From assembly GCF_020731145.1 (NCBI RefSeq), contig NZ_JAJFZN010000003.1, positions 372,001 to 436,000 of the forward strand: a stretch of 64,000 nt of DNA. The letters are read 5' to 3'. Source of the stretch: Sneathiella sp. HT1-7. Its GTDB lineage: Bacteria > Pseudomonadota > Alphaproteobacteria > Sneathiellales > Sneathiellaceae. Below are positions 11,372-18,620 of this stretch, piece by piece. Both the position numbers and the translations under genes were made by a program. The notes beneath the pieces were generated by a model that was given only the letters and a program-made list of their open reading frames with translations, had not been told where the DNA came from and searched no databases. Numbering within the stretch: the first letter of the stretch is position 1; each line of letters starts with the position of its first letter.

Positions 11372-12664
11372 ATGGCGAACGTAGCGGTGGTTGGCTCCCA
11401 ATGGGGTGACGAGGGCAAAGGCAAGATTGTTGACTGGCTGTCCGAGCGTGCAGATGTCGTTGTGCGCTTTCAGGGTGGGCATAACGCCGGCCATACGCTC
11501 GTTGTGGATGGCAAGGTCTACAAGCTCAGCCTGCTTCCGTCCGGCATTGTCCGTGGCGGCAAGATTTCGGTAATTGGCAACGGCGTTGTCGTCGACCCCT
11601 GGGCGCTGATGAAAGAGATTGATACCGTGCGGGGGCAAGGTGTCACCGTCGATCACAACACACTTAAAATTGCAGAAAACGCGACGCTTATCCTACCGCT
11701 TCATGGGGAGCTTGATGCCCTGCGGGAGGATGCGGCGTCGGCAGTGAAGATCGGCACAACACGGCGCGGCATCGGACCGGCCTATGAGGACAAAATAGCC
11801 CGCCGTGCGATTCGCGTGTGCGATCTTACGGATGCGGACCTTCTGAAGCGGAAAATCGCGACCTTGCTCGATCATCACAACGCGCTTCGGAAAGGACTGG
11901 GCGCGCCATTGGTGGATGGGGATAAGTTACTCGCGCAACTCGTTGAAATCGCTCCAAAAGTTCTCGAGTTTTCGGATATTGTCTGGCGCCGCCTGGACGA
12001 GGCGAAAAAGGCCCGCAAGCGGGTCCTGTTCGAAGGCGCGCAAGGGGCGATGCTGGATAACGATCATGGAACCTATCCGTTCGTAACCTCCTCCAATACG
12101 CTCGCTGGACAAGCAGCGGTTGGCAGCGGTGTTGGACCGAGTTCGGTCAATTATGTTCTCGGCATTACCAAAGCCTACACGACCCGTGTTGGCGAAGGGC
12201 CGTTCCCGACGGAACTGTTCGACGACGTCGGCAAGGGACTTGGCGAACGCGGGCATGAGTTTGGTGTTGTGACGGGGCGCAAGCGCCGCTGCGGCTGGTT
12301 CGACGCAGTGATGGTGCGTCAGGCCGTCAAGACCGGTGGTCTCACCGGCATCGCGTTGACCAAGGTTGACGTGCTGGATGGCATGGATGAACTTAAAATT
12401 TGCGTTGGTTATGAACTAAATGGCAAGCAGATCGACTATTTCCCCTCCAACATGGCAGATCAGGCGGCGGTAAAACCCATTTACGAGACCATGGAAGGCT
12501 GGAGCGAGAGCACTTATGGCGCGCGTAGCTGGGCCGACCTTCCGGCAGCGGCAGTCAAATATATCCGCCATGTAGAGGAGCTGATCGAGGCACCGGTCGC
12601 GCTCCTTTCCACAAGCCCGGAACGCGAAGACACCATCCTCGTCCGGGATCCGTTCGAAGACTAG
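11372..12664 (+). CDS. purA: Adenylosuccinate synthetase
   Basis: PurA joins IMP and aspartate using GTP to make adenylosuccinate, the first AMP-specific step. The 430-residue length is standard. The N-terminal [11 protein letters not shown] phosphate-binding motif, [10 protein letters not shown], the IMP-site [11 protein letters not shown] and the GTP-base motif TKVDVLDG are all present. The gene probably shares a transcript with hisZ. The MFS gene follows after 15 bp. Confidence 0.97.
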
Positions 12665-12679
12665 GCGCAGGCAGACCAT

Positions 12680-13849
12680 ATGGGCAAGCAGTCAGATCGC
12701 ATGGCGTCGCTTGCCTTTGGAGGCCTGCTGTCGCTCGCTGTCTGTATCGGGATCAGTCGGTTTGTATTTACACCGATCCTGCCCTTTATGGAGATGGGGT
12801 TGGGGATCAGCAAGCCGGACGCAGGTCTGATTGCCTCGGCTAATTATCTCGGTTATTTACTGGGCGCCTTGTTCGGTAGCCGACAAAACCTGCCGGGTAG
12901 TCCGCGACGCTGGTTCCTTGCTTCAATGGTAACTTGCACGATAACCACTCTGGCAATGGGCATAACGACAAGTTTTGAGGTTTTCCTCGGCCTTCGCCTG
13001 ATTGCCGGTGTGGCGTCGGCGTTGGCCATGGTATTTGGCTCGACCCTCATTCTCAATCGTCTCGCCGCGCGTAAGCGATCTGGTCTTGCGGCGCTCCATT
13101 TCGCGGGGGTGGGCACGGGAATTGTACTGTCATCGGTATTGGTTATCGGAATTGAGGTCATGGATGCCGGCTGGCGGAGCATGTGGATCGCCTCCGGCGC
13201 GCTTTCCTTTGCTCTTGTCCCGCTGATTTTTTATCTTGTTCCGCCGGTGACCGACGCAACTATTGTCGCGGTGAAGGGGGAACGCCTTCATTACAGCCGG
13301 TCACTCAAAGCCTTGATTTTCTCTTATTCTCTGCTTGGATTCGGCTATATTATTACCGCGACTTTCCTCTCGACCCTTGTCCGTCAAATACCTGAAGTGC
13401 AGTGGATGCAGTCCTATATCTGGCTAATTGTTGGGCTTTCCGCGATACCTTCCGTTGCCTTCTGGAACTGGATTGCGGCCTATGTCGGCAACAGGCGGAG
13501 TTATACCTTCGCCGGTTTCGCAATGGCGGCTGGTGTTGTCGCCAGCGTGTTAGGTGAGGGCCCAGTCATACTCACCTTGGCCGCTATTCTTCTTGGCGGG
13601 ACATTTATGGGGATGACTGCCCTGGGGCTTGTCGAAGCACGGAATATGGTGCCCGATCACGCACGCCAGATCCTCGCTGTTATGACGCTTGCTGTTGGGA
13701 TAGGACAGATTGCCGGGCCAATATTTGCTGGCTTTTTGCATGGTATTTTCGGGGACTTCGTTGCCGCGTCGTTGGTCGCCGCAGGCGGGATTGTTATCGG
13801 CAGCCTTCTCGTGTGGCGAAAGCCAGCGAAACCGGCTTCCAGACAATAA
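12680..13849 (+). CDS. YbfB/YjiJ-like major facilitator transporter
   Basis: This 389-residue polytopic inner-membrane protein has about 12 predicted membrane segments. It opens with ISRFVFTPILPFM followed by a loop and LGYLLGALFG, the pattern of the YbfB/YjiJ MFS family. The substrate is unknown. It lies 15 bp after purA with only a weak ribosome site, so it may be translated from a purA read-through transcript. No regulator is nearby. Confidence 0.8.
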   Translation: MGKQSDRMASLAFGGLLSLAVCIGISRFVFTPILPFMEMGLGISKPDAGLIASANYLGYLLGALFGSRQNLPGSPRRWFLASMVTCTITTLAMGITTSFEVFLGLRLIAGVASALAMVFGSTLILNRLAARKRSGLAALHFAGVGTGIVLSSVLVIGIEVMDAGWRSMWIASGALSFALVPLIFYLVPPVTDATIVAVKGERLHYSRSLKALIFSYSLLGFGYIITATFLSTLVRQIPEVQWMQSYIWLIVGLSAIPSVAFWNWIAAYVGNRRSYTFAGFAMAAGVVASVLGEGPVILTLAAILLGGTFMGMTALGLVEARNMVPDHARQILAVMTLAVGIGQIAGPIFAGFLHGIFGDFVAASLVAAGGIVIGSLLVWRKPAKPASRQ

Positions 13850-13927: not shown

Positions 13928-15973
13928 ATGACTGTTGCCGAGAAAATAGAAATGCCGACGAAGTCGCCGACTGGCGATGCTGGCCCTCTGCTTGGGGGAC
14001 GGTTCAGGATCGATGTTTCCCGGCGTCTCGTCGATATGGAAAACGGCGATAACATGGTTGTTCAGGCGACAGATGTTCAGAATCCGTCTGCAGAGTACTT
14101 TGCCGTAATTTCAAATCCTTACAGCAGTTTCCGTCTGGCTATGGCGCAGATAATGAGCGAGATCCATATCCCCGGTATGGTCGATCTTATGGCGCATGGA
14201 AAGGTGCAGTTTTCAGAAATAGAAGCCTGTTATGTTTCCGTGTTCGAAATGCCGCGGGGGGGACGCTTGTATCGTGAAGGGGATGCTCCGCTTCCTGAAA
14301 TTCTAGTGCTGGACTTGGTCGTGTCGACCGTGGCGACCTGCCTGTTGAATTTGCAAAAAAACGGCATGACCCATCGCGGCATTCGCGCAGATAATCTTTT
14401 TGTCGCTGACAATAGTCAGAGCGAATTTCTGCTGGGGGAGGCGATAACAATGGCACCGGGATCGGCCCAACCAGCCGTTTATGAACCGCTGGAATGTGTA
14501 ATGGCGCATCCCATGGGACGGGGTGACGGTAGTCCATCGGATGATATTTATGCGACCGGTGTCCTGATTTTACACTTGGTTGGCGGCAAGCTCCCAGCGG
14601 CGGATTTGAGCCCGGATGAGATTTACACGAAGAAGCTGGAGCTGGGTAGTTTCGCAGCCCTCACCGAAGGCATGAGCTTGTCAACGCGGGTGAGTGATGT
14701 ACTTGCCGGAACTTTACATGATGATCCAAAGCGCCGCTGGGATGCGGAGACGTTGCTCCATTGGCGGGAGGCGATTGGCGACACGCCCAGGCGCGGACGC
14801 GGTGATCGTCATGCTTTTGGTAAGATATTGTTTCAATCGGAAGAATACAGCGCCCCGAGAGTTCTCGCCCATGCCATGACGCGAAAATCGAAGGCCGCGC
14901 TGGAGCTTATCGAGAATGGTAAATTGGCGAAATGGGTCAAGAGCGCGCTTCGCGATGAGGATGCTGCGACCAAGATCGAGCAAATCCAGGCTTCCGCCAA
15001 CTCATCACGCGGCGATAAACGGTTTGATACCGCCGCCGTGGCACAGGCTGTTCGCTTGTTGGATCCGGACGGTATCTTCTGGTATCGCAACGTAGCTTTT
15101 GGCCGAGGGGCCCTCGGTCCTCTTTTGTTATGGGCGTTCCAGAATGATGACGCCGAGATGAAGAAAGACCTGATGGAACTGCTGGAGACTGCCCTGTTGC
15201 AAACAGTGTCTGTGGAGGAAACGCGCAGCAGCAAGGGGAGGCAGTTGGAATGGGTGCCCGAGAGCGCCCTGACAAGGTGTTATGACTATATGAGGCGAAA
15301 GCGGGATGTCGGCTACGGGCTTGAACGATGCCTGTATGAGCTGAACCCGAAAACCCCATGCCTTAGTCCGCTTGTTCTGGGATCACATGTAAGAAATGTG
15401 CCTGAATTTATTGAAATTGCAGAGAAAAAGCTGGCCGCATCCAATGGCCAAGGCAACCCGTTTGACAGGCACTCTGCTGCTTTTATCACCTCAAAGGCGA
15501 AGGGACTTGATAAGTATCTTCGGATGCTCGCAGCGAGCGCGCCAGGTACGTCGGCCAATGCGCTGGCGCAGATTAAACTCTTTGCCAAGTTGCAGGCCGC
15601 CGCCCATCCGGGGCCGCTTCCGGGGTTTTGCCGCTGGATGGAGGAAACGCAGAAGCCGGTCCTTGCAAAAATCCGTTCCCGCTTGCGCCGGGAAGTGGTC
15701 AGCCAAAAATTCCAAGAGGCGAAGAAGAGTGGCAATCTGGCAGCTATTCTGAAAGAAACAGATATCGAGCGGCAACTGGCTGAGGATACACATGAGTATG
15801 AAATTGCGCTTGCAACTTCCGCAGAATCAGAGCGGATCGCGGCCTATCTGGAAGGCGCGAGCGAACAACGCAGGCAAGATGCCGCACATTATGGAATATG
15901 GATCACATCGGTTCTGGCGATTACGACCCTTGTGACCAGCATGACCATCTCCGCCCTTTATTTTCTGGGATAA
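13928..15973 (+). CDS. Membrane-anchored Ser/Thr pseudokinase
   Basis: This 681-residue protein has a Hanks-type kinase fold at residues 20-290, a helical central region, a charged segment near 610-650 and one C-terminal membrane helix (about 655-680), leaving the kinase-like part in the cytosol. The fold is recognisable from HRGIRADNLF (149-158), YEPLECVM in place of the APE region, and SPSDDIYATGVLILHLVGG. Three catalytic elements are changed: the VAIK lysine is absent in YFAVISNP, HRD is HRG (G151), and DFG is replaced by LLGEAIT. It is therefore predicted to be inactive or to have unusual chemistry. A small membrane protein follows after 4 bp. Confidence 0.75.
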   Translation: MTVAEKIEMPTKSPTGDAGPLLGGRFRIDVSRRLVDMENGDNMVVQATDVQNPSAEYFAVISNPYSSFRLAMAQIMSEIHIPGMVDLMAHGKVQFSEIEACYVSVFEMPRGGRLYREGDAPLPEILVLDLVVSTVATCLLNLQKNGMTHRGIRADNLFVADNSQSEFLLGEAITMAPGSAQPAVYEPLECVMAHPMGRGDGSPSDDIYATGVLILHLVGGKLPAADLSPDEIYTKKLELGSFAALTEGMSLSTRVSDVLAGTLHDDPKRRWDAETLLHWREAIGDTPRRGRGDRHAFGKILFQSEEYSAPRVLAHAMTRKSKAALELIENGKLAKWVKSALRDEDAATKIEQIQASANSSRGDKRFDTAAVAQAVRLLDPDGIFWYRNVAFGRGALGPLLLWAFQNDDAEMKKDLMELLETALLQTVSVEETRSSKGRQLEWVPESALTRCYDYMRRKRDVGYGLERCLYELNPKTPCLSPLVLGSHVRNVPEFIEIAEKKLAASNGQGNPFDRHSAAFITSKAKGLDKYLRMLAASAPGTSANALAQIKLFAKLQAAAHPGPLPGFCRWMEETQKPVLAKIRSRLRREVVSQKFQEAKKSGNLAAILKETDIERQLAEDTHEYEIALATSAESERIAAYLEGASEQRRQDAAHYGIWITSVLAITTLVTSMTISALYFLG

Positions 15974-15977
15974 CTGA

Positions 15978-16484
15978 ATGGCTAAGAAAGCAGAAAAAGC
16001 GGCAAAATCCGCGAATGGAACCGAAAGCAGTACCGGTCAGAATATTGCGCTTTTCTGGGTGTTGGTTTTGTCGGGTCTTGGTATAGTTTTTGTACCGCCA
16101 ACTATGCTGGTTCTGATCGCCGGTATGATTCCGAGCTTTGTCGCACTACTTCTGAATACAGATAGGTCCGGCAGTCTTGCGGCGATGTTGGCCTTTAATC
16201 TCGCCGGAATTATTCCTGTGATCGGAATTTTATGGGAGAGGGGCCATACGTTTCATGAGGCTTTTAAAATTCTCTCTGATGTTTATATGTGGCTTGCCAT
16301 GCTGGGCGGTGCCGGTGTTGCCGTGTTCCTGGCCTGGGCTGTGCCGGTAATCGTTTTCTCAACCTATGAGTTGCAAGCGCGCGCCAATCTCGCCCGACTG
16401 CAGAAACAACGGAACAAGCTCATCGAGGAATGGGGCGGACAATTTGTTGCCGATATGAAAGAAATTTCGCAACGCCAGCGATAG
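15978..16484 (+). CDS. Small four-helix membrane protein paired with the pseudokinase
   Basis: This 168-residue protein has a Lys/Ala-rich cytosolic N-terminus, about four membrane helices (near 23-40, 43-60, 69-86 and 103-126) and a charged C-terminal helix with LARLQKQRNKLIEEW. I do not recognise a family. Its ATG is 4 bp after the pseudokinase stop, with GGGA just inside the upstream gene, so the two are translationally linked and may form one membrane complex (inference). Confidence 0.7.
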   Translation: MAKKAEKAAKSANGTESSTGQNIALFWVLVLSGLGIVFVPPTMLVLIAGMIPSFVALLLNTDRSGSLAAMLAFNLAGIIPVIGILWERGHTFHEAFKILSDVYMWLAMLGGAGVAVFLAWAVPVIVFSTYELQARANLARLQKQRNKLIEEWGGQFVADMKEISQRQR

Positions 16485-16580: not shown

Positions 16581-16940
16581 ATGACAGGGCATGTCTACTG
16601 GATGTTTGATCTCGCGATCAAGGACGGCGAATACGAAAAATTTGAAGCGTTGATGAAAGAAATGGTGGAGGCGACCGAGGCCAATGAGCCGGGTGCCCTC
16701 AACTATGAATGGTCGGTCAGCGAAGATAAGAAGACTTGCCATATTCTTGAACGCTATGTGGATTCCGCTGCGACGATGGTTCATATGGGAAATTTCGGTA
16801 AGAATTTCGGCCGTCGCTTTATGGAAGTGCTGAAACCTAACTCCATAACGCTTTATGGTGATCCGTCTGAAGAGGTGGTGAAGGCTTTCAGCGCAATGGG
16901 TCCGGTCATCATGAATTCGGTTGGTGGCTTCTCACGCTAG
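16581..16940 (+). CDS. Antibiotic biosynthesis monooxygenase (ABM) domain protein
   Basis: This 119-residue single-domain protein has the dimeric alpha/beta-barrel ABM pattern: an opening strand, FEALMKEMVEATEANEPGALNYEW, then a strand with the pattern CHILERYVDSAA. YgiN-like members oxidise quinols, while others act in stress or polyketide chemistry. AAGGAAG precedes the ATG by nine bases. It faces a convergent membrane-protein gene 33 bp away. The substrate is unknown. Confidence 0.75.
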   Translation: MTGHVYWMFDLAIKDGEYEKFEALMKEMVEATEANEPGALNYEWSVSEDKKTCHILERYVDSAATMVHMGNFGKNFGRRFMEVLKPNSITLYGDPSEEVVKAFSAMGPVIMNSVGGFSR

Positions 16941-17625: not shown

Positions 17626-18504
17626 TTAGTTCAGCCGTTCTTCCATGACTTTCGACTTCATAGCCCGTTGAAGCTTCTCAAACGCCCGGACTTCAATCTG
17701 CCGAACACGTTCGCGGCTGATGTTATATTCCTGGCTTAGATCCTCCAAGGTTTTCGGTTCCTCACTCAGGCGGCGTTCAGTCAGAATATGACGTTCCCGT
17801 TCATTGAGAACCTCCATCGCCTTTGCGAGCATCGCGCGGCGGCTTTTCAGCTCCTCACTCTCGGCATAGACGGTTTCCTGGTTCGGTGTCTCATCTTCGA
17901 GCCAGTCCATCCATTCGCCTTCGCTCTCGGCACGCATCGGGGCGTTGAGGCTATGATCCGGCGCCGTCAGGCGGCGGTTCATGTTGATCACTTCATCCTC
18001 GGTGACACCCAGCTTCGTGGAGATGGTTTTTACCTGCTCCGATGTCATGTCTCCTTCGTCAATGGCCTCAATCTGGCCTTTGATTTTGCGAAGATTGAAG
18101 AACAGTTTTTTCTGCGCCGCCGTTGTTCCCATTTTCACGAGGGACCATGTCCGCAGGATATATTCCTGAATGGCCGCGCGAATCCACCACATGGCATAAG
18201 TGGAGAGGCGGAAACCTTTTTCGGGTTCGAATCTCTTGACCGCCTGCATCATTCCGACATTGCCTTCCGAGATCAGCTCGGCAATCGGCAGGCCATAACC
18301 GCGATAGCCCATAGCGATCTTCGCGACCAGCCGTAGATGGCTCGTCACCATTTTATGGGCGGCTTCGGTGTCTTCATGGTCTTTCCACGCTTTGGCCAGC
18401 ATATATTCTTCGCTTGGCTCAAGCATCGGGAATTTGCGGATTTCCTGCAAATACCGCGATAGACCGCCTTCCGGCGTTAATACGGGTAAAGTAGATGTGC
18501 TCAT
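17626..18504 (-). CDS. rpoH: RNA polymerase heat-shock sigma factor (sigma-32)
   Basis: This group-3-like sigma-70 family factor directs heat-shock transcription. With the ATG at 18504 (MSTSTLPVLTPEGG) the protein has 292 residues, normal for RpoH, and GAGAGGG lies just upstream. An in-frame upstream extension lacks conservation and is rejected. Region 2 (LRLVAKIAMGYRGYGLPIAE, then LSTYAMWWIRAAIQEYILRTW) is followed by the RpoH-box-like AAQKKLFFNLRKIKGQIEAI. Region 4 has EEYNIS-type helix-turn-helix residues in QEYNISRERVRQIEVRAF. A long inverted repeat occupies the leader between rluD and rpoH. Confidence 0.96.
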   Translation of the reverse strand: MSTSTLPVLTPEGGLSRYLQEIRKFPMLEPSEEYMLAKAWKDHEDTEAAHKMVTSHLRLVAKIAMGYRGYGLPIAELISEGNVGMMQAVKRFEPEKGFRLSTYAMWWIRAAIQEYILRTWSLVKMGTTAAQKKLFFNLRKIKGQIEAIDEGDMTSEQVKTISTKLGVTEDEVINMNRRLTAPDHSLNAPMRAESEGEWMDWLEDETPNQETVYAESEELKSRRAMLAKAMEVLNERERHILTERRLSEEPKTLEDLSQEYNISRERVRQIEVRAFEKLQRAMKSKVMEERLN

Positions 18505-18529
18505 ATCAGGACCCTCTCTATTCGTGGCA

Positions 18530-18565
18530 CCCGGGTTTTGTCGTATTATACGCCCAAAAGCCGGG
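18530..18565 (-). promoter_or_regulatory. Nested inverted repeat in the rpoH leader
   Basis: On the rpoH strand, CCCGG-C-TTTTG pairs with CAAAA-C-CCGGG (10 of 11 positions, one C-C mismatch). The loop contains a second palindrome, CGTATAATACG, which itself includes a perfect TATAAT. The element lies 26 bp upstream of the rpoH ATG. It may be a promoter with an embedded operator, or a leader RNA structure. It has no U-tract and so is not a standard rluD terminator. Confidence 0.5.
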
Positions 18566-18620
18566 CCCGGATTACATTCCTGTCTACTCAAGAACCGTGG
18601 CATTTCTATGATTTTGGGAT

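Follow-up and report, generated by a model that had tools for sequence, protein, structure and literature searches.

In the part of a review of bacterial pseudokinases drawn on here, seven families are described, and the group as a whole is characterized as largely unexplored by experiment (PMC12599244). EssB/YukC, which belongs to the T7SSb secretion system of Bacillota, has a cytosolic kinase fold in which all three catalytic motifs have been lost, followed by one transmembrane (TM) helix and an extracellular domain. It acts as an interaction hub, and its polytopic membrane partner, YueB, is encoded in the same locus (PMC9600267 and, in the part drawn on, PMC12599244); contact between YukC/EssB and the polytopic membrane protein is probably made via TM regions (PMC9600267). 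The MviN pseudokinase domain (ActPs3) of Mycobacterium is a degenerate kinase fold situated inside a large membrane protein, in which the catalytic-loop pattern is listed as lost altogether (PMC12599244, table 1). In the GLW pseudokinases of proteobacteria, GLW replaces HRD and poly-Leu replaces the beta3 Lys strand. SelO/YdiU is a bacterial kinase-fold protein without the HRD Asp, which, according to the part of the review concerned, is active in AMPylation and retains both the DFG Asp and the Lys of beta3 (PMC12599244); SelO and SidJ, both known pseudokinases with new chemistry, are tabulated there as retaining Lys and DFG Asp (PMC12599244, table 1). In addition, Escherichia coli YegI is an atypical kinase of about 650 aa whose TM segments follow the kinase domain.

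The locus described here lies in the window, by which is meant the whole 64,000-nucleotide stretch of Sneathiella sp. HT1-7 DNA that was analyzed. Both ORFs that the first-pass annotation had placed at 13928-16484 were found at these coordinates on the same strand; they encode a predicted tail-anchored pseudokinase (PK) and its partner membrane protein (MP), and 4 nt separate the PK stop from the MP ATG (Table 1). The pair appears to mark an undescribed two-part inner-membrane device rather than a decaying gene, since PK is inherited together with MP in about a third of the Alphaproteobacteria genomes sampled.

Table 1. Features of the PK-MP locus and its neighbors, in window coordinates.
Feature	Position	Strand	Basis or detail
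PK, predicted tail-anchored pseudokinase	13928-15973	+	681 aa ORF
PK kinase-fold domain, residues ~21-295	13988..14812	+	AF2 secondary structure/confidence, family alignment
PK C-domain, residues 296-612, all-helical, ~300 aa	14813..15763	+	AF2, family alignment
PK residues 613-681, single ~68-residue predicted helix leading to C-terminal TM anchor	15764..15970	+	AF2
MP, partner membrane protein, four predicted TM helices	15978-16484	+	168 aa ORF
purA, upstream neighbor (context)	11372..12664	+	69/101 loci
rpoH, convergent downstream neighbor (context)	17626..18603	-	62/101 loci

The homology of PK to protein kinases was confirmed as genuine on profile and model evidence, being weak by sequence but strong by family profile and fold. 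PK alone matched Pfam Pkinase with E=7e-5, under the gathering score, and its best PDB chain was PknA (E=2e-4), whereas the PK family profile matched PDB kinases down to 7e-16. The AF2 model, built with 84 family members (mean pLDDT 93.1, pTM 0.87), predicted a bilobal protein-kinase-like fold; Foldseek matched its kinase domain to PknA, PknB, WNK and CaMK-type kinases, and target-normalised TM-scores of the model against the PknA, PknB and WNK kinase domains were ~0.7-0.75. Model, Foldseek and profile matches thus agree with the earlier view that the 681-residue protein has kept a kinase fold, and the C-terminal anchor proposed at the same time corresponds to a TM helix at ~662-680 that was detected in 99/103 members. 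Near-invariant positions are also present family-wide in the C-domain (W336, G464, E466-R467, Y470, C478, D513, H515, Q556 and G602), with Y470 and C478 found in all 112 members aligned, and D620 in the long helix is invariant across the family.

The catalytic motifs of the kinase-fold domain are degenerate: the Gly-loop is degraded, S62 stands at the VAIK Lys position, residues 149-151 read HRG, and LGE (169-171) replaces DFG, while H149, R153, N156, alphaF D206 and R270 are kept in the family alignment. Motif counts were made on 112 family members spread over Alphaproteobacteria and drawn from 100 loci and further ones. At the VAIK Lys position Cys, Ser, Leu, Ala, Thr and other residues were observed, with Lys in 0/112; the HRD Asp position was occupied by Ala (42), Gly (25), Ser (15), Asn (13) and others, and by Asp in only one of the 112. 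Position 169, which the spacing from HRD aligns with the DFG Asp, held Leu, Ile, Phe or Val in nearly all members and Asp in 0/112; this register could be off by 1-2 residues, as beta8 is predicted at 167-169 and so ends at 169, and setting the Asp position at 170 instead gave Gly in 108/112 and Asp in 2/112. By these counts PK may be regarded as a pseudokinase in the sequence sense of the term, its catalytic residues being lost and the loss conserved. The first-pass annotation had likewise described PK as devoid of the ATP-site Lys, the HRD Asp and the DFG Asp, and no intact HRD/DFG set was found among the 112 orthologues, so recent decay is not indicated. In a 103-row alignment, D206 (103/103), D265 (103/103) and R270 (102/103) are likewise kept and look structural.

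Judged against the part of the review drawn on here, PK appears to match none of the reviewed families, the non-GLW ones having been compared by description only. The closest working analogy for PK-MP is probably YukC/EssB, in mode rather than in membership: a cytosolic kinase fold with all three motifs lost, one TM helix and a polytopic membrane partner from the same locus are common to both, whereas PK carries a ~300-aa cytosolic helical domain before its C-terminal anchor and has no adjoining secretion genes. Membership of EssB/YukC was rejected because the TM helix is at the extreme C-terminus and the neighbors are purA and rpoH rather than a T7SSb cluster. PK resembles MviN in that a degenerate kinase fold is tied to a membrane protein, but MP is a 4-TM protein in its own right and the pattern H-x-x-I-R-x-x-N is kept in PK. 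The GLW family was also rejected, as no GLW occurs among the HRD-position motifs of PK, which are mostly H[R/G]x, and the beta3 strand is typically A-L-V-C (commonest motif ALVC). PK shares with SelO the absence of the HRD Asp, but the residues that define SelO, the beta3 Lys and the DFG Asp, are absent in the family, and this assignment, with AMPylation, was rejected; SelO-like chemistry appears unlikely for PK because both residues have been lost, and the earlier idea of atypical catalysis of the SelO kind found no support on the same ground. A relationship to YegI was rejected as well, since neither the family profile nor phmmer gave a match; PK resembles YegI in length, in its atypical kinase domain and in having its membrane segment after that domain, but the TM layouts of the two proteins differ.

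As described by the first-pass annotation, a small four-helix membrane protein adjoins PK: the 168-aa MP has four hydrophobic segments, and its charges fit an N-in/C-in topology family-wide; the basic loops would then face the inside, and the outside would carry an acidic loop as well as a tight Pro-Pro turn. In a structure model (pLDDT 89.6), helices were placed at 19-38, 40-49, 51-58, 64-87 and 102-167, and the long C-terminal helix, predicted to be cytosolic, carries a conserved E-W-G motif (W152, G153). P52 (99%), N74 (98%), G77 and P123 are conserved, the first two lying inside TM helices. For MP and the PK C-domain, no covering Pfam model, no NCBIfam model among the members scanned and no PDB entry matched by sequence were found.

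The two genes are strictly paired. When the MP HMM was run over 101 PK loci, MP was detected directly downstream of PK on the same strand in 96, mostly with gaps of -1 to +30 nt; some of the matches sit in long read-through ORFs (L079, L100, L117), which were taken as start-site artefacts. Among the five loci without an adjoining MP, two are at contig edges and three belong to genomes with MP elsewhere (G326, G242, G056), showing that the genes can separate and yet both be retained; the neighbors of these separated MP genes (exonuclease VII, YchF and MlaC genes) are unrelated and gave no clue. Tandem PK duplications duplicate MP too (L124, L126, L150). Across 385 Alphaproteobacteria genomes, PK was found in 133, MP in 135 and both in 132, and the genomes with just one of them are fragmentary or marginal cases; in the order of the window, PK is present in 24/26 genomes. 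A draw of 399 genomes from the whole phylum, overlapping with the class sample, contained 16 genomes marked by MP and equally by the PK C-domain, every one of them alphaproteobacterial. In this draw there was one further, marginal MP match, and no PK C-domain was found outside the PK architecture. The genomic pairing and co-occurrence, with MP conserved beside PK in orthologous loci, support the earlier proposal of a dedicated pseudokinase that has a membrane partner of its own; such a pair had also been called rare, which does not agree with its presence in about a third of the sampled Alphaproteobacteria.

PK and MP distances are correlated beyond the species signal (Mantel p<=0.001), with a partial r of 0.66 when purA is controlled for and of 0.61 when rpoH is. 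Shared composition could contribute to this relationship. Genes that are linked and evolve fast can have effects of rate and composition in common. Residue covariation of PK with MP outside the order of the window did not exceed that of shuffled pairings; the signals of the whole set vanished against shuffles once this order was removed, and no PK-MP interface is therefore claimed. Charge complementarity between the long helices of the two proteins was not seen.

Farther out around PK-MP, hisZ, serA and rluD are found, and the usual position beside purA and rpoH indicates vertical descent of the pair from early in Alphaproteobacteria. The same gene order is present in Azospirillum thermophilum, where PK (WP_109331946.1) is named 'serine/threonine protein kinase' and MP (WP_245986950.1) 'hypothetical protein'; both Azospirillum PK members to which the collection gives a product name bear this kinase label, whose functional meaning is unsupported by the motifs. 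The position does not by itself link PK-MP to purines or heat shock, and assignment of a function from neighbors was rejected because purA, hisZ, serA, rpoH and rluD have housekeeping roles and accompany the pair by synteny. Anti-phage defence was similarly rejected, since the PADLOC matches are weak generic kinase-domain ones and the locus occupies a conserved housekeeping position. In the window, a YbfB-type MFS transporter gene (12680-13849) lies between purA and PK; it is present in about half of the order only and is probably a later insertion into the gene order. MP is followed by an ABM-domain monooxygenase-like gene (16581-16940, 119 aa), and similar-sized ORFs come after MP in many members of the order.

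Most likely, PK is a scaffold or regulatory head without catalytic action, which MP keeps at the inner membrane. We infer a physical complex of the two proteins, non-catalytic action and coupling through helices from the family-wide catalytic loss with the fold kept, the pairing, the co-occurrence, the correlated distances and the YukC/EssB precedent. PK and MP would make up a two-protein complex in the alphaproteobacterial inner membrane that is ancient and vertically inherited. In it, the kinase-fold head and helical C-domain of the tail-anchored PK would be cytosolic, with a single unbroken helix linking them to the membrane, and the four-helix MP would extend at its C-terminus into a long helix in the cytosol. 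Phosphate transfer by the kinase fold would have ceased; the head may serve as a scaffold or an allosteric receiver that catches a cytosolic client or ligand, coupled to MP via the two long membrane-proximal helices. On balance, we consider it probable that PK and MP act as one such complex, with a client bound by a non-phosphorylating head. Of the alternatives offered by the first-pass annotation, a scaffold or allosteric device at the inner membrane is thus retained as the best reading, and the SelO-type one is not.

What counts against PK as a pure scaffold is the polar set of the cleft (R69, H149, R153, N156 and E/D171), which appears unusually conserved, more so than a pure scaffold needs. 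R69 is found in 107/112 members, H149 in 103/112, N156 in 108/112, G170 in 108/112 and an acid (Glu or Asp) at 171 in 101/112, while R153, standing where the catalytic-loop Lys would be, is present in 96/112; the pattern H-x-x-I-R-x-x-N is therefore retained despite the loss of Asp from HRD and DFG. It is possible, if rather unlikely, that PK is an atypical enzyme or a small-molecule sensor whose cleft, with its migrated R69, R153, N156 and E/D171, binds a nucleotide or another ligand and either catalyses a non-kinase reaction or senses the ligand. However, PK lacks a Gly-loop, and in the whole family neither the VAIK Lys nor an Asp at the DFG-D position occurs, whereas SelO and SidJ are tabulated in the review as keeping Lys and DFG Asp; the retained residues may just hold loop structure. 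A similarly tentative reading is a class-wide, vertically inherited inner-membrane device in which the kinase fold has been rebuilt around the migrated Arg/Asn/acid site for a non-canonical ligand or a new reaction and signals via MP.

The scaffold reading also has to be weighed against one in which the PK head gates MP and the membrane function (channel, transporter or flippase-like) lies in MP itself. The Pro and Asn conserved within the MP TM helices would be in line with this, as would solo paralogues: three extra MP-family copies without an adjoining PK were found in one genome (G039; L161, L162, L163) and likewise in another (G171), which suggests that MP can work without PK or together with further proteins. 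Nevertheless, no transporter or channel family matched MP consistently, Foldseek gave no PDB fold match with E<=0.001 for MP, and no shared metabolic neighbor was seen beyond the housekeeping genes around purA and rpoH, leaving this a doubtful explanation. One of the solo copies (L162 in G039) comes shortly after the gene for a hybrid histidine kinase of 994 aa (HisKA, HATPase, receiver, Hpt).

In informative pairs of relatives, PK showed pN of 0.08-0.28 against pS of 0.48-0.81, the pair L085/L075 having been left out as too distant and apparently saturated; MP gave similar pN/pS, and purA and rpoH evolve more slowly. Since pN is far below pS, both PK and MP are under purifying selection. That PK is a once-active kinase in recent or drifting decay, a dying gene, is extremely improbable, even though every catalytic motif is degenerate and one PK (G012, L071) is split over two overlapping ORFs of 406 and 340 aa (either a frameshift or an assembly error), because the same degeneration is shared class-wide, pN is far under pS, Y470 and C478 are universal and the pair is retained in genomes of 1.4-2.0 Mb. 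Recent decay was ruled out by pN/pS and the class-wide motif loss, and the degenerate state of PK is ancient. The retention of PK-MP from streamlined 1.4-Mb to 7-Mb genomes, mostly at one position by purA and rpoH, makes the pair a strong candidate for a core function at the inner membrane of Alphaproteobacteria that has gone unrecognised. PK is also an experimentally accessible Gram-negative pseudokinase.

Several minor observations were made in addition. A 2.0-Mb genome (G157) contains three PK-MP pairs (L150, L167), of which two lie in tandem. In the host genome of the window, the sole kinase-like gene besides PK over the Pfam cut-off encodes a YegI-like atypical kinase of 450 aa, followed directly by a PP2C-like phosphatase ORF (L194:3323-5505, G000:C6), both named by reading translations. 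As no canonical Hanks kinase was found over the cut-off in the host, PK is unlikely to be a regulator of a classical Hanks kinase.
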